19,361 bases of DNA from a bacterium (GCA_021792615.1 JAJYUJ010000043.1:1-19361); one strand, 5' to 3'; positions 4,096 to 19,361 are shown, counted from the first letter of the stretch. The notes: generated by a model not told the origin, from the sequence alone. Program-made: numbers and translations.

Positions 4096-5439
4096 ATGAA
4101 AGCAAGGGTAGCAACATTTTTATTTCTTTCATCAATGGTAATGCTGATGATTGCAGGATGCTCGGGAAAGAACGGTGCAACAGGGCCACAGGGAATTGCA
4201 GGCCAGAACGGGGCACAGGGAGTTGCAGGCCCGAACGGAATTGTAATCAGCAGCCTGAGCGCAACACCCAACACATTACTCCCCAACAGAACGGCAACAG
4301 CTATCGTCAATGCATACGCTCCGGCCGGCGTGACCCTGAACTATACATGGTCAGCATCGAACGGCTGGAAAGTAGCAGGGTACGGAACAACCGCAACGAT
4401 CACAGCGCCCATAGCATATAATGAAACTGGCTATATAACAGTAACCGTTGATGATGGTTCGGCGAGCATTACCGGTACAACGGTATTAAGCACGGTCTCT
4501 CAGCTCGTTACCAATACCTTTTCTGTCGGCTATAAACCTGAGGGCATAGCCATAGACGCATCCGGTAATATCTGGGTGGCAAATTCCGGTGAAAAAACGG
4601 TCTCCGAGCTCAGTCCCACGGGCACGACCATTGGGACGTATACCGTGGGCGTCGGGCCTCAAGGCGTTGCCATAGACGCATCCGGGGATGTCTGGGTATC
4701 GAACGGGGGCAACAACACGGTGTCGGAATTAAGCCCCACGGGCACGACCATAGGCGGGCCATTTACTGTCGGAATCAAACCCATGGGTATAGCCATAGAC
4801 GCATCCGGCGATGTCTGGGTGGCAAATTCCGGTAGCAACACGGTCTCCGAGCTCTATCCCACGAGCACGACCGTAGGCGGGCCATTTACTGTTGGAACCT
4901 CTTCCAACGCCATAGCCATAGATGCATCCGGCGATATCTGGGCTGTGAATTTAATGGATAACACGGTGTCGGAATTAAGCCCCACGGGCAAGACCGTAGG
5001 CGGGCCATTTACTGTCGGAACATATCCGAGTGGCATAGCCATAGCCACAACCGGCAACATCTGGGTCACGAATTTCGGAAACGGTACGGTATCCGAGCTC
5101 AGTCCCACGGGCGCGACCCTTGGGAAATATACCGTAGGGGGCTATAGCCCGCAAGGCATAGCCATAGACGCATCCGGCAATGTCTGGGTTGTTAATTCTT
5201 ACGGCAACAATTTAAACGGCAATAATCCGGGAACGGTAACAGAACTGCGACCTGATGGTACAATAGTCGCAAACTATGCCACAGGTTTTCGTCCCTACGG
5301 CATAGCCATAGATGCGCTTGGCGATGTCTGGGTCACGAATAATCAAGACGGCACGGTGAGCGAGATAGTGGGCGTCACACAGGGGCCGGAGTACTGGCCT
5401 TACACAGGTCCGGTATTCCCGGGCGGCGGAAATTACTGA
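4096..5439 (+). CDS. Lipoprotein with collagen-like, Ig-like and seven-blade propeller parts
   Basis: A 447-residue protein. Residues 1-21 are a lipoprotein signal ending in a lipobox (MIAGC, Cys22), so it should be lipid-anchored in the envelope. Residues 24-48 are eight Gly-X-Y triplets (GKN GAT GPQ GIA and so on), a short collagen-like spacer. Residues about 49-135 resemble an Ig-like/PKD domain. From residue 148 to about 428 there are seven repeats of about 41 residues, each like GIAIDASGNIWVANSGxN-TVSELSPTG, the NHL/Vgb (virginiamycin B lyase-like) blade motif; seven blades match a complete Vgb-type propeller. The repeats are also very similar at DNA level (4537-5380). Catalysis is not implied; binding or adhesion at the cell surface is more likely. 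It has its own promoter and a hairpin after the stop. Confidence 0.85.
   Translation: MKARVATFLFLSSMVMLMIAGCSGKNGATGPQGIAGQNGAQGVAGPNGIVISSLSATPNTLLPNRTATAIVNAYAPAGVTLNYTWSASNGWKVAGYGTTATITAPIAYNETGYITVTVDDGSASITGTTVLSTVSQLVTNTFSVGYKPEGIAIDASGNIWVANSGEKTVSELSPTGTTIGTYTVGVGPQGVAIDASGDVWVSNGGNNTVSELSPTGTTIGGPFTVGIKPMGIAIDASGDVWVANSGSNTVSELYPTSTTVGGPFTVGTSSNAIAIDASGDIWAVNLMDNTVSELSPTGKTVGGPFTVGTYPSGIAIATTGNIWVTNFGNGTVSELSPTGATLGKYTVGGYSPQGIAIDASGNVWVVNSYGNNLNGNNPGTVTELRPDGTIVANYATGFRPYGIAIDALGDVWVTNNQDGTVSEIVGVTQGPEYWPYTGPVFPGGGNY
4537..5380 (+). repeat. Seven tandem coding repeats of about 123 bp
   Basis: The units begin near 4537, 4657, 4780 and so on, and share the core ggcatagccatagacgcatc. 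Each encodes one propeller blade. Silent positions are also conserved, which points to recent duplication or gene conversion between units. The sixth unit is longer because of an insertion rich in Asn and Gly. Confidence 0.8.
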
Positions 5440-10800: not shown

Positions 10801-10819
10801 ATGTTAAAGCCGAGTCAAT
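10801..10819 (+). repeat. Module A, copy 1 (short)
   Basis: The 19-bp sequence atgttaaagccgagtcaat is found here, at 11672 and at 13784, identical each time. In this copy the hairpin part seen in the other two is missing and promoter module B follows about 9 bases later. Confidence 0.85.
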
Positions 10820-10828
10820 TTCACTTGA

Positions 10829-10960
10829 GGAATTTATATTGCAATAATCATGCTTTTGGCTTATAAAAAACATCACTTCCTTGCAGTGCACAGAGATTAA
10901 CAAATCCCGAAAAAGGAGTTTGTCATTATGAATGAAATAAAGGATTCCATGGCCTTTGTT
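10829..10960 (+). repeat. Promoter-leader repeat (module B), copy 1
   Basis: A 132-bp block matching 11795-11926 with one mismatch, and 13631-13780 more loosely. It holds TTGCAA (10839-10844), 17 bp, TATAAA (10862-10867), then a leader, the ribosome site AAAAAGGAG, and ATG at 10928. The small ORF here (10928-11020) reads MNEIKDSMAFVVSLKARIKG and ends after 30 residues. The DUF4160 gene follows 59 bases later. Confidence 0.85.
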
Positions 10961-11016
10961 GTATCCCTAAAAGCAAGAATCAAGGGGGCCAGAATCTCAT
11001 CCTTGTTTCTTGAACC

Positions 11017-11045
11017 TTGACAAAAAGGACCGCAACAACTAATAA
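11017..11045 (+). promoter_or_regulatory. Possible second promoter for the DUF4160 gene
   Basis: A perfect TTGACA (11017-11022) is followed after 17 bp by a weak TAATAA (11040-11045). The gene starts at 11080 behind AAGAGAAGA. It may act with, or instead of, the promoter in the repeat upstream. Confidence 0.3.
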
Positions 11046-11079
11046 ATACAATATAGTTTCTATCGGATAAGAGAAGATA

Positions 11080-11337
11080 ATGCCAACGGTAAAAAATATA
11101 AAGGGTCCGTATCGCTTTTTCTTTTATAGCTTTGATTGCAACGAGCCAATGCATGTACATGTTCAGAGGGAAAGAATGGTATGCAAGTTCTGGCTGGAAG
11201 CTGTGGTGTTGGGTAAAAACTACGGATTTGCATCAGAAGAATTGAATACAATACGGAAAATTATTATTAATAATAAAAATAAGATTGTGGAGGCGTGGCA
11301 TGAACACTGCGGTAAAACTTCAAGAAGTAAGAATTAA
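11080..11337 (+). CDS. DUF4160 family protein (possible toxin-antitoxin partner)
   Basis: An 85-residue protein with the DUF4160 pattern: RFFFYSFDCNEPMHVHVQ, then KFWLEAVVL, then GFASEELNTIRKII and a C-terminal AWHEHC. The HVHV motif is the family hallmark. DUF4160 genes are commonly followed by a DUF2442 gene, as here, in small two-gene units that are suspected toxin-antitoxin modules; which partner is the toxin has not been shown to my knowledge. The ribosome site AAGAGAAGA is moderate. The last codons overlap the start of the DUF2442 gene by 38 bp, so the pair is translationally coupled. It sits directly downstream of module B copy 1. Confidence 0.85.
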   Translation: MPTVKNIKGPYRFFFYSFDCNEPMHVHVQRERMVCKFWLEAVVLGKNYGFASEELNTIRKIIINNKNKIVEAWHEHCGKTSRSKN

Positions 11338-11581
11338 GGACATAAAGATCACACAGGACAAAATTACAGCCCATCTCGTTGACGGACGGATCATCAGTGT
11401 CCCCCTTGCGTGGTCATGGCGATTGTCCGAAGCAACGCCACAGCAACGCGCCCATTATGAGATTATAGGGGATGGTGAAGGCGTACACTGGCCTGATATA
11501 GATGAGGACATTAGTGCAGAAGGAATGCTGTATGGTATCCCGGCTCAGCGGCATTCAAAGTCTACAACTACACGAAATTGA
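11300..11581 (+). CDS. DUF2442 family protein (partner of the DUF4160 gene)
   Basis: A 93-residue protein with the complete DUF2442 pattern: ITAHLVDGRIISVPLAWSWRL, then EATPQQRAHYEIIGDG, then the strongly conserved GVHWPDIDEDISAEGML. ATG at 11300 is preceded by GGAGG (11289-11293) at six bases, so I prefer it to an in-frame TTG at 11285. It overlaps the DUF4160 gene. NMR work on other members shows a small fold without known catalysis. It may be a DNA-binding antitoxin or a neutraliser of the partner protein; this is inference from gene order. Confidence 0.85.
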   Translation: MNTAVKLQEVRIKDIKITQDKITAHLVDGRIISVPLAWSWRLSEATPQQRAHYEIIGDGEGVHWPDIDEDISAEGMLYGIPAQRHSKSTTTRN

Positions 11582-11671
11582 AATAAGATATAGGGCATTC
11601 CCGGCCGGCTTTACCTCGACTCTTCTGCGTCATCTTAGACGGGCACGACACTATACGTTTATAAATTGCTT
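11582..11671. other. Short spacer after the DUF2442 gene
   Basis: Ninety bases with the GC-rich patch ccggccggc near its start and no ORF. No clear terminator is visible before the hairpin repeat that begins at 11672. Confidence 0.4.
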
Positions 11672-11787
11672 ATGTTAAAGCCGAGTCAATATGTCAGTAT
11701 CATCTCTTCCTCCTGTCTTTATAACAGGATATACTACTGACATTTTCACTTGGTAATTAGAGATCACATTTTCACCTGGCTGTCGCA
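11672..11787 (+). repeat. Hairpin repeat (module A-C), copy 2
   Basis: It begins with the shared 19-mer (11672-11690). ATGTCAGTA (11691-11699) and TACTGACAT (11735-11743) are perfect inverted repeats, with a nested CCTGT/ACAGG pair (11712-11716, 11724-11728), so a stem-loop of about 53 bases can form. It then carries two ATTTTCAC motifs and ends in ctggctgtcgca. Read on the minus strand it contains AGGAGGAAGAG-ATG, as at the start of a gene. The repeated GTGAAAATGT-like boxes recall the multiple terminal repeats of IS21-type elements, but no IS21 genes are present. Confidence 0.7.
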
Positions 11788-11794
11788 CCATTGC

Positions 11795-11926
11795 GGAATT
11801 TATATTGCAATAATCATGCTTTTGGCTTATAAAAAACATCACTTCCTTGCAGTGCACAGAGATTAACAAATCCCGAAAAAGGAGTTTGTCATTATGAATG
11901 AAATAAAGGATTCCAGGGCCTTTGTT
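11795..11926 (+). repeat. Promoter-leader repeat (module B), copy 2
   Basis: 131 of 132 positions match copy 1. TTGCAA is at 11805-11810 and TATAAA at 11828-11833 with 17 bp between them. The small ORF starts at 11894 and reads MNEIKDSRAFVLLRVLPENGAA, stopping at 11962. Its TAA is immediately followed by the ATG of a Cas3-like fragment. After position 11926 it diverges from the other copies. Confidence 0.85.
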
Positions 11927-11962
11927 CTCTTGCGGGTTTTGCCAGAAAATGGTGCCGCATAA

Positions 11963-12016
11963 ATGCCTATCCCGGACGAAAAAAATAAGGAATTTTACGC
12001 TCACAGCCGCTGTTAA
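11963..12016 (+). pseudogene. Short 5' fragment of a Cas3-type gene (fragment 1)
   Basis: The frame reads MPIPDEKNKEFYAHS and then RC and a stop. The EFYAHS motif is the start of CRISPR-associated Cas3 HD nuclease proteins (xYAHSxxGKPxxxW). A second, longer fragment at 12874 starts MPASSEKTVEFYTHS and shares ggaattttac-ctcacagc at DNA level. Similarity here is lost right after the HS codons (about 12007). It is a broken remnant, not a functional protein. Fifteen residues are few, so the call rests on the match to the second fragment. Confidence 0.45.
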
Positions 12017-12048
12017 ATATTTATTCCATTGAGTTACAGGAGGAATCT

Positions 12049-12081
12049 ATGCTATTCTTCAAAAAAGAATGGTTACATTAA
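12049..12081 (+). CDS. Ten-codon minicistron with a strong ribosome site
   Basis: ACAGGAGGAATCT-ATG starts a ten-residue peptide, MLFFKKEWLH, with a TAA stop. The ribosome site is among the best in the window. It lies about 90 bases before the TumE-type operon and may be a leader peptide or the surviving start of a deleted gene. Its function is unknown. Confidence 0.3.
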   Translation: MLFFKKEWLH

Positions 12082-12171
12082 GATCGGATTTCATAATAAC
12101 AACGGCGTTTTAAAATAAATAGGTAGCTCATCTATGATCCAGGATAGAACATAGGTGCAAGGAGGTTAACC

Positions 12172-12450
12172 ATGTCGGCTGTAATTAATATGGTTGCAAA
12201 AGAATTACATATGAATCCCGGAGAGCTTTTGAATGAGAGTGTAAGAAGTTATCTCGAAAAAAAGCTCTCGGTAATCGATGCTGAGATTTTCCTCATAGTA
12301 AAGAAATACGGCATTAAAGATGTTTTCGAGCTTGATGCAAAAGTAAAGAAGGGCTTTATACATGAGAAAGATGCCTACGATGATTATTTCACGCTGGACA
12401 ATCTCGAATCAGAGCGTAAGACAATAAAAAATATATTAGAAAAGCTCTGA
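12172..12450 (+). CDS. Candidate antitoxin next to a TumE-type toxin
   Basis: A 92-residue, highly charged, mostly helical protein (MSAVINMVAKELHMNPGELL at the start). The N-terminal 35 residues resemble the DNA- or toxin-binding start of small antitoxins; the C-terminal half (DAYDDYFTLDNLESERKTIK) is acidic and should be extended or helical. I do not recognise a named family with certainty. It has a strong AAGGAGG site before 12172, and its TGA overlaps the ATG of the next gene (TGATG). Order, size and coupling are those of an antitoxin-toxin operon. Confidence 0.6.
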   Translation: MSAVINMVAKELHMNPGELLNESVRSYLEKKLSVIDAEIFLIVKKYGIKDVFELDAKVKKGFIHEKDAYDDYFTLDNLESERKTIKNILEKL

Positions 12451-12806
12451 TGTCTACCATTGAAGACATCAAAAGAATAGCAGAAGTTGAGTTTTCGGAC
12501 ATTATCAGCAATGCTTATCAAATAGATTATAAGCTGCGGATTACATTAAGGAATAATAGCTTTATTGATGTATACCTGTCCCGGACATTAACCGGCAAAT
12601 TTGGTTTTCACTGGGAATGTAGAGATAAAAAAAGAACAATTTACCGATATGATAATTTTCCTGATAAAAAATGGCGGCATGTAGCGACATTCCCGCATCA
12701 TTTTCATAACGGTTCTCAGAATACTGCCGAAGCTTCACCGTTTCCACGTACGATAATTGACGGGTTCAGAGCGTTCATGGAATTCGTAAGAAACAAAGTT
12801 GGATAA
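12450..12806 (+). CDS. TumE-type toxin-antitoxin system protein (DUF6516)
   Basis: A 118-residue protein. YRYDNFPDKKWRHVATFPHHFHNGSQ matches the diagnostic YRYDNAPH-ATFPHHKH signature of the TumE/DUF6516 toxin family. Upstream, YQIDYKLRITLRNNSFIDVYLS and FGFHWE are the usual beta-strand segments. The conserved Asp and His residues could form a catalytic or metal site, but the activity of the family is not well defined. It starts one base inside the stop codon of the antitoxin gene, so the pair is coupled. Downstream it runs directly into a Cas3-type remnant. Confidence 0.8.
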   Translation: MSTIEDIKRIAEVEFSDIISNAYQIDYKLRITLRNNSFIDVYLSRTLTGKFGFHWECRDKKRTIYRYDNFPDKKWRHVATFPHHFHNGSQNTAEASPFPRTIIDGFRAFMEFVRNKVG

Positions 12807-12873
12807 CTTCCGTGCAGTTCTTTATTCAAACAAATGGTTCACCTGGTTTTTCCAAAAGAAGGTATTGAAGCCG

Positions 12874-13083
12874 ATGCCCGCGTCAAGTGAGAAAACTGTG
12901 GAATTTTACACTCACAGCATTGAAGGAAAACCAGTCCAAGAATGGCATCGGCTTGAAGAACATCTTAAGCAAACGGCGGAGTTAGCTAAGTCTTTCGCGG
13001 ATGAGTTTGGGTGTGGGGAATGGGCGAATCTTGCGGGCAGAGACCATATTATCTTTTCTTTGGATTACAATCACCTCCTGTAA
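12874..13083 (+). pseudogene. Truncated Cas3-type HD nuclease gene (fragment 2)
   Basis: The frame reads MPASSEKTVEFYTHSIEGKP, then VQEWHRLEEHLKQTAELAKS and FADEFGCGEWANLAG. This is the N-terminal start of Cas3 HD domains, where YxHSxxGKPxxxWxxLxxHL precedes the catalytic WHDLGK. Similarity stops at about 13038, exactly where the HD pair is expected (LAGR-DH instead of LAGxWHDLGK), and the frame then runs into a transposase remnant and stops at 13083. About 55 residues are left, without the nuclease site or the helicase. No other cas gene or CRISPR array was found. The frame is open upstream to the TumE stop. Confidence 0.7.
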
Positions 13084-13615
13084 CCCTGAGATTGCCTGAA
13101 GCGGGGTCACATACTTCAGGGAACTGTGCGGGTCATTATTGTAAATTTCCGTGAAGCGGTCAAGCCATTGAAACAACATCATCAACCGTAGGAAAACGCA
13201 TTGGTATTTCCCTGTGATATTTCAGTGTTTTGATAAAGGCCGCGATCCATGCCTGGTCATCCGGTGTATGAGGTCGTCCGTAATGTACTGGTGCACCTAA
13301 CAGGTCTTTAATAGAAACCCTTGTCCATGAAGCTTTCATGGCTAATCCCCTATCTGAATGGGCAATCAGGTTCATGTGGAGATACTCCGGCAGTCGTGTC
13401 AATGCTTCCGATACCGTTTTCATAAGGTCGCTGGATGAAACACCGTTTAAACAATGGCCTATAGAAAGCAGGTATCGGAAGGGCAATACCATGACCGGAA
13501 TAGCCCATACCTTGATCCCGGATTCGGTTACAAAGCAGGTTCCATCATAACACAGCAGAGAAAACCCTTCCCGTAACAGGCTGTGTGGGCTGACCCCTAT
13601 GCCGTCTGGTGTTTA
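13040..13615 (-). pseudogene. Decayed DDE transposase (integrase-core type)
   Basis: On the minus strand the frame from 13615 reads TPDGIGVSPHSLLREGFSLL, then CYDGTCFVTESGIKVWAIPV, then IAHSDRG (second catalytic Asp), then HTPDDQAWIAAFIKTLKYHR, then a frameshift near 13172-13185, then FTEIYNNDPHSSLKYVTPLQ. These are the successive blocks of IS3/IS481-like integrase-core transposases. The position that should hold the catalytic Glu (AWIEAF in relatives) is Ala (gcg). The N-terminal helix-turn-helix part is missing, and no terminal inverted repeats could be paired. It is dead: frameshifted, truncated and lacking Glu. Its left end abuts the broken Cas3 fragment, so its insertion may have cut that gene. 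Confidence 0.8.
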
Positions 13616-13630
13616 CATGGACGGTGAATT

Positions 13631-13780
13631 CTTATTGCAAACACCGGATTTTTAGCCTATATATCATATCACTTCCCTGCAGTGCACAGAGATTAACAAA
13701 TCCCGAAAAAGGAGTTTGTCGTTGTGAATGAAATAAAGGATTCCAAGGTCTTTGTTATGTCCCTAAAAGTAAGGATCAAG
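13631..13780 (+). repeat. Promoter-leader repeat (module B), copy 3
   Basis: This copy is more diverged than the other two, but keeps TTGCAA (13635-13640), a 17-bp spacer of different sequence, TATATA (13658-13663), the leader core and AAAAAGGAG. The small ORF starts with GTG at 13724 (VNEIKDSKVFVMSLKVRIK) and runs on into module A, ending at 13852 after 42 codons. Conserved promoter boxes around a changed spacer suggest that the promoter has been kept by selection. Confidence 0.75.
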
Positions 13781-13783
13781 ATA

Positions 13784-13873
13784 ATGTTAAAGCCGAGTCA
13801 ATCTATCAGTATCATCTCTTCCTCCGGTCTTTATAACAGGATATACTACTGACATTTTCACCCGGCTGTCGCA
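13784..13873 (+). repeat. Hairpin repeat (module A-C), copy 3
   Basis: It starts with the same 19-mer (13784-13802), followed by the hairpin module with some substitutions, and ends in cccggctgtcgca. Here A-C follows B directly, with no genes between them. CCGGCTGTCGCAA at its end is an imperfect inverted copy of TTGCAAACACCGG at 13635, so 13635-13873 could be a complete small element. Confidence 0.65.
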
Positions 13874-13924: not shown

Positions 13925-16900
13925 ATGGCTGACCAGCTTCCAAAACAAGTATCAGATCTCATAGAACGATTTGAAAGAAACCAGCAGTCCTATACCTCCA
14001 GCCAATACAACGAAGCCCAGCTCAGACAGGAATTTATAAATCCTTTTTTTGAGGCACTCGGCTGGGATGTCAGCAACGAACAGGGCAATGCAGAGGCATA
14101 TAAGGACGTCATACACGAGGATGCAATCAAGATTGGCAGTGCAATCAAAGCACCCGATTATTGTTTCAGGATCGGCGGGACAAGGAAGTTCTTTGTCGAA
14201 GCCAAGAAACCTTCTATCAAGATTGATGATAATATAGATGCAGCATTCCAGCTTAGAAGGTATGCGTGGTCTGCAAATCTGCCGCTTGGTATTCTGACCA
14301 ATTTTAAGGAATTTGCAGTCTATGACTGCCGTGTAAAGCCTGCAAAAGATGATAAAGCTTCAAGTGCACGCATAAGCTCTTTTGCTTACACAGACTACCC
14401 GCAACAATGGAATTACCTTGTATCTGTATTCTCAAAAGAATCCGTGCTGAAGGGCTCTTTTGATAGGTATGCTGAATCAAGCAAATCAAAAAAAGGCACT
14501 GCTACGGTTGATGATGCGTTTCTGAAAGAAATCGAATCCTGGCGCAGCGAACTTGCTCATAAGATAGCACTACGCAATCCCACACTTACCACACGAGAGC
14601 TTAATTTTGCCGTGCAGCGCACGATAGATAGGATCATATTCCTGCGTATTTGTGAGGACAGGGGCATGGAGCAATACGGAAAGCTCCAGTCCATGATGAA
14701 CGGCGTAAACGTTTATAAACGCCTTTTCGAATTATTCCAGCGTGCAGACCAGCGCTACAACTCAGGGCTTTTCCATTTCAGCAAGGAAAGGGACCGTAAA
14801 GAAGAGCCGGACAATCTTACTCCCTTCCTGAACATCGATGATGAGCCGATAAAAGATATTATCAACCGGCTTTACTATCCCGAGAGCCCCTATGAGTTTT
14901 CAGTTCTTTCTGCAGACATACTGGGGCAGGTATATGAGCAGTTCCTCGGCAAGGTAATCAGACTTACAGAAGGACATCATGCCAAGATTGAAGAAAAACC
15001 AGAGGTCAGGAAGGCAGGCGGCATCTATTACACACCGACGTACATTGTGGATTACATCGTAAAGAATACGGTCGGCAGGCTTCTTGGCCAGGAACCTGAT
15101 TTAGCCCGTCATTCCCGCGAAGGCGGGAATCCAGCTTCTTCTCCCGTCGTCATTCCTGCGAAAGCGGGAATCCAGTCCCCTGATTCTTTCCCTCCCTTGA
15201 CGGGAGGAACGGAAGGGAGGGTGAAAAAACCTATCAATCCCAAAGATGCCTCTAAGCTACGTATCCTTGACCCCGCATGCGGTTCCGGTTCATTCCTTAT
15301 CGGAGCTTACCAGTATCTATTGGACTGGCATCTGGATTGGTATGTAAAAGACGGGGCAGAAAAATACGCTAAAGCTGCCAGACCTATATTGTATCAGGTT
15401 CAAGGCGGCAGCTATAGGCTGACTACTTACGAAAGGAAGCGCATCCTTCTCAATAATATTTATGGTGTTGACATAGACCCGCAGGCGGTTGAGGTTACAA
15501 AGCTGTCACTGTTACTCAAGGTCCTGGAAGGTGAGAGCAGCCAAACATTGGATGTGCAATTTAAACTATTCCACGAGCGTGCCCTACCTGATCTCGAAAA
15601 TAACATCAAATGCGGCAACTCCCTCATAGGACCGGATTTCTATCAACAGCAAAGCTTGAACCTCTTCAACGATGACGCACGTCTCCGCATCAACGCATTC
15701 GACTGGAACACCGAATTTAAAGACATCATGACCTCCGGTGGCTTCGATGCAGTCATCGGCAATCCACCATATGGTGCAACGTTTAGCAAAAATGAAGCTA
15801 TCTATTTCCAAGATAGATATAAAGTTTTTAGTGGGGTTAAAGATGTTTATGTCTGTTTCATAGAACGTAGCCTATCGATGTTAAATACAAGAGGCCGACA
15901 TTCATTTATTGTTCCATCAGCATGGCTTGGCGGACCCGAGTACACGAGACTACGTAATTTATTTTTACAATATCAAATTGAATTAATAATCCTCTTGCCA
16001 TTTGATGTTTTTAAAGATGCATATGTTGATACTACTGTCTTCGTAATCTCTAACCAATTTGTGAAACCAGAACATACAGTCCAAACCAATATTTTCCCTA
16101 AGAGGGAGAAACTCGTTACAATTAAATTAGCCGAAGATCGTTATCAAGCTATTCACCAATCTGAATGGGTTAACTCAGCGGATAATAAATTTGTGCTTGA
16201 TTCTAACACAGTGCGTCTTCTTGAACAGATAAGAAAGCAAGTTCATGCTACTTTTGCCGATGTTATCGAAATCAAGCGGGGAGTTCTTTTTGATAAAAAT
16301 TTACTCACCAAGAAAAAAACAGGAGTAAATAGCTATCGCTATTTTGAAGGCGACGTATATCGGTATCAACTCAATCTGATTACCGAGCACTGGATTGAAT
16401 TTAACGATATGATAAAAGAACGCCCTAAGGAATTTATATGGTTTGAAGAGCCGAGAATTTTAATGAGGCGTTTGGTTAATCGACGCCAAAGAATGATGTC
16501 TTCTCTGGCTACAGATACTTTTATTACAAACAAAAACTTATATAGCGTTCTATCTAAAGATAAATTACTTAGTATTGAAGCTCTATTAGGTGTACTGAAT
16601 AGCCGTTTAATATCCTATTTATACATTAATCAGGTAACTCAGGCAACTAAAGATGATTTTCCACAAGTGACAATTAAAGATGTTCTGGCACTTCCATTTC
16701 CTCAACTTTTAAAAGATAAAGCCCGTCATGATAAAATGGTCTCTCTTGTTGACCAAATGCTTTCACTCAACAAACAATTACCAACAGTAAAAACAGACCA
16801 TGAAAAAACCGCTCTCCAGCGCCAGATCGATACCATCGACAAGCAGATAGATGAACTGGTCTATGAGTTGTACGGGATAACAGAGGAGGAGAGGAAGATA

Positions 16901-16936
16901 ATTGAGGGGAATGGTATAGCGAATGACAATGAATGA
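13925..16936 (+). CDS. Type IIG restriction-modification enzyme (Eco57I-like)
   Basis: A 1003-residue fusion of nuclease, methyltransferase and target-recognition parts. Residues about 20-140 resemble the HsdR N-terminal nuclease fold, with Asp78 and Glu92-Ala-Lys94 as the PD-ExK site. The methyltransferase has motif I DPACGSGSF from residue 449 and motif IV NPPY at 613-616, typical of N6-adenine methylation. Residues about 770-960 are the likely recognition domain, and the tail with LYGITEEERKIIEG is common to the family. It should cut and methylate with one chain. Odd points: residues about 393-435 are an in-frame REP-type insert not expected between these motifs, and base composition becomes AT-rich from about 15775 to 16795. 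The ribosome site is weak. The promoter could be repeat copy 3. Confidence 0.9.
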   Translation: MADQLPKQVSDLIERFERNQQSYTSSQYNEAQLRQEFINPFFEALGWDVSNEQGNAEAYKDVIHEDAIKIGSAIKAPDYCFRIGGTRKFFVEAKKPSIKIDDNIDAAFQLRRYAWSANLPLGILTNFKEFAVYDCRVKPAKDDKASSARISSFAYTDYPQQWNYLVSVFSKESVLKGSFDRYAESSKSKKGTATVDDAFLKEIESWRSELAHKIALRNPTLTTRELNFAVQRTIDRIIFLRICEDRGMEQYGKLQSMMNGVNVYKRLFELFQRADQRYNSGLFHFSKERDRKEEPDNLTPFLNIDDEPIKDIINRLYYPESPYEFSVLSADILGQVYEQFLGKVIRLTEGHHAKIEEKPEVRKAGGIYYTPTYIVDYIVKNTVGRLLGQEPDLARHSREGGNPASSPVVIPAKAGIQSPDSFPPLTGGTEGRVKKPINPKDASKLRILDPACGSGSFLIGAYQYLLDWHLDWYVKDGAEKYAKAARPILYQVQGGSYRLTTYERKRILLNNIYGVDIDPQAVEVTKLSLLLKVLEGESSQTLDVQFKLFHERALPDLENNIKCGNSLIGPDFYQQQSLNLFNDDARLRINAFDWNTEFKDIMTSGGFDAVIGNPPYGATFSKNEAIYFQDRYKVFSGVKDVYVCFIERSLSMLNTRGRHSFIVPSAWLGGPEYTRLRNLFLQYQIELIILLPFDVFKDAYVDTTVFVISNQFVKPEHTVQTNIFPKREKLVTIKLAEDRYQAIHQSEWVNSADNKFVLDSNTVRLLEQIRKQVHATFADVIEIKRGVLFDKNLLTKKKTGVNSYRYFEGDVYRYQLNLITEHWIEFNDMIKERPKEFIWFEEPRILMRRLVNRRQRMMSSLATDTFITNKNLYSVLSKDKLLSIEALLGVLNSRLISYLYINQVTQATKDDFPQVTIKDVLALPFPQLLKDKARHDKMVSLVDQMLSLNKQLPTVKTDHEKTALQRQIDTIDKQIDELVYELYGITEEERKIIEGNGIANDNE
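15107..15175 (+). repeat. Two REP-type palindromes inside the restriction gene
   Basis: Two copies of cgtcattcccgcgaaggcgg plus gaatccag (15107-15134 and 15148-15175) form inverted stems. They are translated as RHSREGGNP and VIPAKAGIQ, the well-known product of such repeats in one frame. A further stem-forming repeat, ccctccctt with aagggaggg (about 15190-15221), follows. A third relative lies at 17974-18000 in reverse orientation. Confidence 0.85.
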
Positions 16937-17973: not shown

Positions 17974-18000
17974 TGGATTCCCGCCTGCGCGGGAATGACG
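17974..18000 (-). repeat. REP-type palindrome, third copy
   Basis: tggattcccgcctgcgcggg plus aatgacg is the reverse complement of the two palindromes inside the restriction gene at 15107 and 15148. It forms the same stem and lies between genes here. Confidence 0.85.
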
Positions 18001-18122
18001 GAGAACTGGGGGAAATTCTCGCTTCTACTCGCCGGGGGATGAGGCGTCTGCCGTTTGACATTGGACATTTGGGGGCAGGGGAACAGAGAAGAATAGAGAA
18101 GAATAAGGGGGTCAAATCTTTC

Positions 18123-18260
18123 CAGGCTGTTGAAAAACTCGGATTACTGTCATTGCGAACGAAGTAAAGCAATCTCATTTTATTAAATCAATAAGTTATA
18201 GATTGCTCCGTCGCAAAATCGCTCCGCGCAATGACTTGCAGTGGCTTTTTCAACAGGCTG
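18123..18260. mobile_element. MITE-like element with nested inverted repeats
   Basis: Perfect 15-bp ends CAGGCTGTTGAAAAA (18123-18137) and TTTTTCAACAGGCTG (18246-18260) enclose a second inverted pair, GTCATTGCG (18149-18157) with its complement ending near 18235, inside which attgctccgtcgcaaaatcg lies. It has no ORF. Length is 138 bp. It fits a non-autonomous miniature element. Confidence 0.65.
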
Positions 18261-18284
18261 TTTCATTTTGACAAAGGACATATA

Positions 18285-18320
18285 GAGGTCCGGTATTAAA
18301 ACATCAGTGACCTCATTTTT
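18285..18320 (+). terminator. Possible intrinsic terminator
   Basis: GAGGTC (18285-18290) and GACCTC (18309-18314) form a 6-bp stem with an 18-base loop, followed by ATTTTTTAA. The long loop makes it weak. It would end transcripts from upstream before the next promoter. Confidence 0.35.
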
Positions 18321-18536: not shown

Positions 18537-18643
18537 CAATCAGCCCGGAAATAATTCCCCCCTTTTCGTATTTCTGAAAACGGGTATCTGTTCCTCTTTT
18601 TCAAAAGCATATCACATTGGATGAACAACAGATAAAACTTCTC

Positions 18644-18672
18644 TTGACAACTGTCACGAGACTCGTTACATA
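18644..18672 (+). promoter_or_regulatory. higBA promoter with overlapping palindromic operator
   Basis: TTGACA (18644-18649) is followed by a 19-bp inverted repeat TGT-c-ACGAG-a-CTCGT-t-ACA at 18652-18670, then a weak -10 region near 18667-18676 (TACATA or TATATG). The higB ATG is at 18680. A palindrome between -35 and -10 is the expected place for autorepression by HigA. That HigA binds here is inference. Confidence 0.5.
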
Positions 18673-18679
18673 TATGTCC

Positions 18680-18961
18680 ATGATTAAGACGTTTGCCGAC
18701 AAACATACTCGTGAACTCTATATATCCGGTAAATCGAAGCGATTGCCGGGCGATATTTTAAAAAGGGCTTTACGACGTCTGGAATATCTTGATTATGCGA
18801 CATGCATCGAAGATTTTAGGGTACCGCCAAGTAATAAATTGGAAAAACTCGGCGGCGACCGTTTAGGCCAATATAGTATAAGGATAAATGATCAATGGAG
18901 AATATGTTTTCGCTTTGTTGATGCTGATGCATATGATGTTGAGATAATAGACTATCACTAA
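18680..18961 (+). CDS. higB: HigB-type (RelE superfamily) toxin
   Basis: A 93-residue protein starting MIKTFADKHTRELY. KRLPGDILKRALRRLEYLD, then DFRVPPSNKLEKLGGDRLGQ, then YSIRINDQWRICFRF, then DAYDVEIIDYH are the family blocks in order. HigB toxins are ribosome-dependent mRNA interferases; the C-terminal Arg, Trp and Tyr/His residues are the usual active-site elements. The frame is open to a TTG at 18617, but all homologous sequence begins at the ATG at 18680, which lies just after the promoter and operator. The ribosome site is poor, which is common for toxins. It is followed after 16 bases by its antitoxin gene, in the toxin-first order typical of higBA. Confidence 0.93.
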   Translation: MIKTFADKHTRELYISGKSKRLPGDILKRALRRLEYLDYATCIEDFRVPPSNKLEKLGGDRLGQYSIRINDQWRICFRFVDADAYDVEIIDYH

Positions 18962-18977
18962 AGAAAGGAGGTGTGTT

Positions 18978-19292
18978 ATGAGCATACAGAACATTGGTAT
19001 AAGGCGGGTAAAACCGACCCATCCCGGTGAGATTCTGACAAAGGATTTTATGCCGGATTATGGTCTTACTACTGCGGCCTTGGCAGCTAAAATAAGAGTG
19101 TCCCGACAAACAATCAATGAGCTGCTCCGCGAAAGGCGTGCTCTTACCCCATCGATGGCGTTGCGGCTTTCCCGCTTGTTCGGGAACACACCGGAATTCT
19201 GGCTGAACGCGCAGAGGGCCGTAGACCTCTGGATTGAACAGAATAAAAACAAGAGAACACTTAAAAAAATAAAGACGCTGAAAGCGGCATGA
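18978..19292 (+). CDS. higA: HigA-type antitoxin, XRE family HTH regulator
   Basis: A 104-residue protein. RVKPTHPGEILTKDFMPDYG is the HigA hallmark opening, followed by an XRE helix-turn-helix (TTAALAAKIRVSRQTINELL) and RALTPSMALRLSRLFGNTPEFWLNAQ, which is the family core. It neutralises HigB and represses the operon through the DNA-binding domain. The ribosome site AAAGGAGG before 18978 is much stronger than that of the toxin, which favours antitoxin excess. The candidate operator is the palindrome at 18652-18670. Confidence 0.95.
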   Translation: MSIQNIGIRRVKPTHPGEILTKDFMPDYGLTTAALAAKIRVSRQTINELLRERRALTPSMALRLSRLFGNTPEFWLNAQRAVDLWIEQNKNKRTLKKIKTLKAA

Positions 19293-19361
19293 GAAACAAA
19301 TCAACAGGGAACCGCAGGAGCAGTCCTTGAAAGGTGAAATAGGTTAACAAGCAGGTGTAAC
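19293..19361. other. End of the window after higA
   Basis: Sixty-nine bases with no gene start, no hairpin with U-tract and no repeat seen elsewhere in the window. Confidence 0.4.

Follow-up and report, generated by a model that had tools for sequence, protein, structure and literature searches.

The stretch of DNA examined here, hereafter the window, comprises 19,361 nt of a bacterial genome (GCA_021792615.1 JAJYUJ010000043.1:1-19361; host genome G000, 2.54 Mb in 77 contigs, 99.55% complete), and its region from 10,801 to 13,873 carries two repeat modules, B and A-C, which alternate with small gene pairs and with remains of cas3, a gene of the clustered regularly interspaced short palindromic repeats (CRISPR)-Cas system. 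The order in the window is B, a DUF4160/DUF2442 pair, A-C, B, 15 cas3 codons, a TumE pair, a cas3 scrap, the remains of an insertion sequence (IS), B, A-C, and a restriction enzyme gene (Table 1). The repeat search returned B at 10825-10960, 11791-11926 (99% identity) and 13621-13756 (82%), A-C at 11672-11749 and 13784-13861 (96%), and a 19-mer termed A at 10801, 11672 and 13784, all on the plus strand. It thus agreed with an earlier, sequence-only reading of the window, which had placed these modules on one strand, and Pfam agreed with that reading on the DUF4160, DUF2442 and TumE genes. Repeats of 78-136 nt at 82-99% identity far exceed what chance would produce. In a search of the whole host genome, all three B copies (B1 to B3) were confined to this region, and the C part of A-C was also present at host contig C35:235.

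To define module B, structure-free covariance models (R1 and R2) were searched across nine genomes of the phylum, to which a search reaching beyond one family was confined and which are mostly fragmented metagenome-assembled genomes (MAGs) whose cas contigs end inside cas5c; weak matches (E > ~1e-4, e.g., G002 C91 and G007 C31) were left out of the counts. The third B copy of G008 extends as far as the start codon of an 842-aa Cas3c open reading frame (ORF) followed by Cas5c, and the second copy of G004 is followed by a cas3 scrap, a 724-aa Cas3c ORF and Cas5c; in copies G008c and G004b the module ends at the cas3 start directly before cas3c. In B, −35 and −10 hexamers are followed by a Shine-Dalgarno-like stretch and a short leader ORF, after which come the first cas3 codons. 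In eight copies, TTGC(A/C)A and TAT(A/C)NN are spaced exactly 17 nt apart, with a mean pairwise identity of 0.95 in the −35 element, 0.62 in the spacer and 0.76 in the −10 element. Downstream lie GGAG(G/A)TTTG(T/C)CATT and then the short ORF (MKNLKVFVLLPVLQKGGPA in G008c, MNEIKDSRAFVLLRVLPENGAA in B2), which ends with its stop codon directly against the cas3 ATG. By layout and position, B is identified as the leader of a type I-C cas3, made up of a predicted promoter, an untranslated leader, a short ORF and the first codons, and it would be active as a promoter.

The Cas3 fragments recognized earlier proved to be real, as the translations of the two scraps, MPIPDEKNKEFYAHS at 11963-12010 and MPASSEKTVEFYTHSIEGKPVQEW at 12874-13083, correspond to the N-terminal part of a cas3 scrap in a relative (MPVAEEKTKEFYAHNIEGKPVQEW). 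The window holds no intact cas3, only these scraps, and no Cas3_HD match was found in the host genome. A search with one I-C repeat pattern, which degenerate repeats would escape, revealed arrays in G004 and G006 and none in G000 and G008, and the I-C spacers seen in G006 and G004 showed no match to B by eye. The resemblance to a type I-C operon lies in the relatives, where B precedes Cas3c and then Cas5c and I-C-like repeats occur in G004 and G006, whereas the toxin-antitoxin (TA) pairs and extra leaders upstream, the reduction to cas3 scraps in the window and the failure to find Cas8c in any of the genomes set the locus apart from such an operon.

Strong B matches numbered three in G000, two in G004, three in G008, and one each in G005 and G006, in addition to a partial copy on G006 C7 and a scar on G007 C73. 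Taken together, B or B-derived sequence lies at about 12 places in the nine genomes, 11 of them at defence genes. On G008 C21 the order is tRNA-Asp, B, MNT/HEPN, B, a RelE-type toxin with an HI1420 antidote, B, and cas3c; on G004 C360 it is B, about 15 cas3 codons, the TumE pair, B, and cas3. In G005 (C79), B stands directly before a PBECR2-like/DUF2283 pair (the PBECR2-like match being below cut-off) and an hsdM-like gene, and in G006 it lies 5′ of a 1409-aa Cas12b-like protein (C4, L068, 5100-9759; C2c1 RuvC-like domain, E 1.2e-22). A possible PIN-type pair (by eye, with no Pfam match) precedes the partial B and a decayed cas3 on G006 C7. The remaining place, the G007 scar (L087 4837-4915), is a leader-like sequence flanked by an unrelated ORF and a gene resembling those for ribosomal proteins, and no defence gene adjoins it. 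Within the phylum, TumE was confined to G000 and G004 and lies at B in both, and the leader-cargo order is repeated in three genomes.

The cargo consists of two small adjacent or overlapping genes of TA families, namely RelE/HI1419 with the HI1420 antidote, MNT with HEPN, TumE with an overlapping partner, and DUF4160 with DUF2442, and judging from these families the pairs are putative type II TA modules, with MNT plus HEPN counted as type VII in current naming. The presumed TumA of the window gave no Pfam or NCBIfam match. The TA activity of TumE-TumA has been demonstrated experimentally elsewhere (PMC10584680), and DUF4160/DUF2442 has been listed as a pair (PMC12654330).

The search with the B3/A-C region returned many C matches in the relatives, often close to contig ends, and these copies read TGTGATAGCCAAGTGAAAATGTC..., then a Shine-Dalgarno-like stretch, and then the transposase start. 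A nearly whole IS was found at L021 (G007 C67), consisting of the left end, transposase pieces (an HTH_28 match and a weak rve_3 match) and the right end ...ATTGACTCGGCTTTAACA, flanked on both sides by CCAGTATCTTCAAAT, which represents a 15-16-bp target duplication. The A 19-mer is the right end of this IS, and an identical right end lies behind a transposase C terminus (tblastn, 7e-08) in L025 and L026. A-C therefore joins the right end (ATTGACTCGGCTTTAACA) to the left end, with termini matching those of L021, L025 and L011 and with the transposase gone. On this comparison A-C is identified as an internally deleted, non-autonomous IS, unrelated to B, which landed beside B copies; its family we take to be ISNCY/IS1202-like. 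What had been regarded as a module A at 10801, paired with B, is instead an 18-nt IS end stub at 10802. Retention of both termini without a transposase (HTH_28 plus rve-like) is the pattern of a non-autonomous IS or a miniature inverted-repeat transposable element (MITE), from which A-C differs in that the target duplication is absent in the window: no repeat is common to the two sides of 11673-11787 or of 13785-13873, so later rearrangement of these copies is likely.

An ordinary 240-bp MITE made up of A-C and B, occurring in three copies with insertions, had been put forward before as an alternative. A-C is MITE-like and non-autonomous, and it abuts B in the first two window copies (10802/10829 and 11787/11795), but B lacks terminal repeats and its end consists of cas3 codons, and the two modules occur separately: C without B in G004, G006, G007 and on host contig C35, and B without A-C in G004, G005, G006 and G008. 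With cargo enriched at B in addition, this explanation is scarcely credible. The hairpin in C was also considered as a cassette terminator. It is located in what is the 5′ leader of the IS transposase, folds well on the minus strand, which is the transposase strand (z −2.9 and −4.3), and weakly on the plus strand in the second copy (z −1.8), and the terminator/promoter scan called no terminator-like site there; the terminator role was thereby ruled out.

The junctions of the units bear on the proposal of the sequence-only reading that B-cargo-(A-C) units form a gene-cassette system, each with its own promoter and end hairpin, and on the further assumption that a recombinase moves them as units. 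The B-cargo half of it stands in outline, since B has promoter features and TA or defence cargo lies between B copies in the window and, independently, in relatives, alternating with B in three genomes much as repeats alternate with cargo in integron cassettes. Fixed unit ends, however, were not found. The leader passes into cargo at about cas3 codon 15 (B2 and G004a), about codon 7 (G008a), about codon 3 (G008b) or just past the Shine-Dalgarno-like stretch (G005), and the upstream edges vary too, the HEPN stop codon abutting mid-leader in G008b. No conserved recombination site was present at the cargo ends, the junction being different in every unit, and several cargo units have a promoter, both unlike integron cassettes. 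Such variable ends argue against site-specific cassettes, and A-C, an IS derivative that occurs without B, is absent from the B-cargo units of the relatives and cannot serve as their end module. We therefore regard a cassette system as very improbable.

Evidence of recombination was instead found among the leaders themselves. B copies cluster by genome in the tree (support 100/99 for G000 and 96/97 for G004). B1 and B2 show one difference over 10829-10960 and then 20 in 31 positions, and over 10961-10984 B1 differs from B3 at 4 of 24 sites and B2 from B3 at 18 of 24; judged by these counts, B1 is a chimera of B2 and B3. As copies of the same genome are most alike and B1 is chimeric, the B copies recombine. 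The TumE units of the host and G004 are 89% identical in their genes and 67% in their leaders, as expected if leaders were replaced from within the genome.

Collectively, these results suggested that the region is probably what remains, after decay, of the front of a type I-C CRISPR-cas locus in a defence island, in which the cas3 leader was duplicated in tandem and unrelated TA pairs came to lie between its copies. The ancestral order would have been [leader - toxin-antitoxin]n - leader - cas3, and loss of cas3 in the host would have left leader copies, cas3 starts and TA pairs. Each full leader would drive the genes behind it, so that TA pairs and cas3 would share one expression signal; tandem leaders could offer short homologies for gain, loss or swap of cargo; and the TA pairs could make loss of the locus costly, acting as an addiction system. 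Promoter activity, shared regulation, addiction and the first entry of the cargo are what we infer from the arrangement.

Several points weigh against this reading. The nine genomes, mostly fragmented, make up a small sample and hold four I-C-type loci, one merely a remnant. Cas8c was found in none of them, a search made uninformative by contigs that end in cas5c, and full I-C operons are not established for want of it. The sigma-70 consensus scan gave no excess of promoter-like sites and did not single out B, so the predicted promoter activity rests on conservation; in G008a and G008b part or all of the promoter is gone, so that not every unit would be independently driven. The G008 copies of B do not form one clade. 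The roles of DUF4160/DUF2442 and of the presumed TumA are putative, assigned by family or position, and the expression and toxicity that the reading presumes are predictions from sequence.

Alternatively, the leader copies could have arisen as the cas operon was replaced again and again: each incoming operon would have recombined into the leader of its predecessor and left a leader and a cas3 start behind, with the TA pairs as island passengers without functional link. Unlike cas3 lineages do lie behind similar leaders: Cas3c of G008 and G004 are 36% identical and their leaders 75%, and Cas12b follows B in G006. Furthermore, the Cas3 of L102, a separate MAG from outside the phylum, is 82% identical to that of G008 only starting with residue 18 and lacks a B, so that the G008 operon probably became attached to a leader already in place, and two cas3 starts with different continuations exist both in G004 and in the window. 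Operon replacement alone, however, leaves unexplained why a two-gene TA pair, and not other genes, sits between leaders each time, and we consider it unlikely as a full account, although it may belong to the same story as the duplicated leader. Beyond the phylum, Cas3c loci (L093-L103) had no B, and no TA pair was recognized upstream of them where sequence was present, in a small check by eye and with a few Pfam scans.

TA pairs frequently neighbour CRISPR-cas loci, and it is debated whether the two are wired together or just happen to be adjacent. Here, no fewer than four unrelated pairs lie beside leader copies (the TumE pair, MNT/HEPN, RelE/antidote, and DUF4160/DUF2442, the first three between two copies), with a possible fifth in G006. 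Shared regulatory DNA would be a direct and testable physical link between TA and cas genes, and a simple possible route for the gain, swap and loss of cargo. CreTA is an RNA TA guard of CRISPR-Cas, in which the toxin is repressed by Cascade and the antitoxin resembles CRISPR RNA (PMC9458426; PMC12737573). Like CreTA, the arrangement in the window nests an addiction-type module beside cas genes and could penalize loss of the locus; unlike CreTA, its pairs encode proteins, belong to a number of unrelated families and have the leader sequence of cas3 in common. More tentatively, and with considerable doubt, TA pairs might be wired to CRISPR-cas by leader sharing: each new pair before cas3 would gain a leader copy, pairs and cas genes would be switched together, and loss or silencing of cas would be punished, a protein counterpart of CreTA reached by duplicating the leader, which would serve as a fixed site of expression for interchangeable cargo (I-C, Cas12b, TA). 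Our literature searches on leader duplication or TA pairs upstream of cas3 returned nothing on point, and the recurrence of unrelated TA pairs between cas3 leader copies appears to be new.

Table 1. Features of the repeat region and its downstream gene in the window.
Feature	Position	Strand	Basis
IS right-terminus stub (18 nt), remnant of a deleted A-C copy	10802..10819	+	Identical to right terminus of full IS in L021 and to IS ends in L025/L026
B1, chimeric cas3-type leader (5′ part like B2, 3′ part like B3); predicted −35 TTGCAA, 17 nt, −10 TATAAA	10829..10991	+	Repeat/alignment comparison
DUF4160 protein, first gene of putative TA pair (cargo 1)	11080..11337	+	Pfam PF13711, E 1.2e-16
DUF2442 protein, second gene of putative pair	11285..11581	+	Pfam PF10387, E 2.2e-20
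A-C, 115-bp internally deleted IS; right terminus joined to left terminus with transposase leader hairpin	11673..11787	-	IS-end comparison
B2, leader of cas3 containing a short ORF at 11894-11962 (MNEIKDSRAFVLLRVLPENGAA), stop touching cas3 ATG	11795..11962	+	Best R2 match, 142.5 bits
cas3′ start scrap, ~15 codons (MPIPDEKNKEFYAHS)	11963..12010	+	N terminus shared with the cas3 starts of G004, G006 and G008
Presumed antitoxin to TumE, called TumA from its position	12172..12450	+	ORF overlapping TumE start; 89% DNA identity to G004 TumE unit
TumE toxin (cargo 2)	12450..12806	+	Pfam PF20126, E 1.7e-16
Second cas3 N-terminal scrap (MPASSEKTVEFYTHSIEGKPVQEWHRLEEHL...)	12874..13083	+	Matches G006 C7 cas3 scrap
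Degraded transposase pieces of another IS	12982..13492	-	Interrupted ORFs; largest without Pfam match
B3, leader copy truncated at its 3′ end by A-C	13627..13779	+	Repeat/alignment comparison
A-C, 89-bp internally deleted IS	13785..13873	-	IS-end comparison
Fused restriction-modification enzyme (HSDR_N, Eco57I methylase, TaqI_C)	13925..16936	+	Pfam

The site occupied by the island was identified by comparison with L121 (G008:C130; 90.8% identical to the window), in which an nnrS-like gene comes after yjbQ and the interval is free of defence genes. In the host, the nnrS-like gene is 0.5 kb away from the end of contig C24, and the first 226 bases of this contig correspond to window positions 18113-18287 and 19309-19359; the defence island therefore fills the yjbQ/nnrS-like site in the host, and the related site in L121 is empty. 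The C24 start joins these two segments directly and is an apparent copy of the site without the HigB/HigA pair (18617-19292). L121 was binned with G008, yet G008 has another recN at 64%, which suggests that the bin is probably mixed, or that the contig derives from a close relative of the host. At the end of G004:C387 (L127), a CRISPR array resembling type I-C stands immediately next to a repeat that looks like type I-E. Within the 1003-aa restriction-modification ORF, two repeats resembling repetitive extragenic palindromic (REP) elements (CGTCATTCCCGCGAAGGCGGGAATCC) lie in frame at 15106-15178 and encode RHSREGGNPASSPVVIPAKAGIQS; they are related to REP-like repeats at 17974-18001. In addition, positions 4096-5439 of the window encode a 447-aa predicted lipoprotein with 41-residue repeats (~123 nt) of beta-propeller-like appearance.

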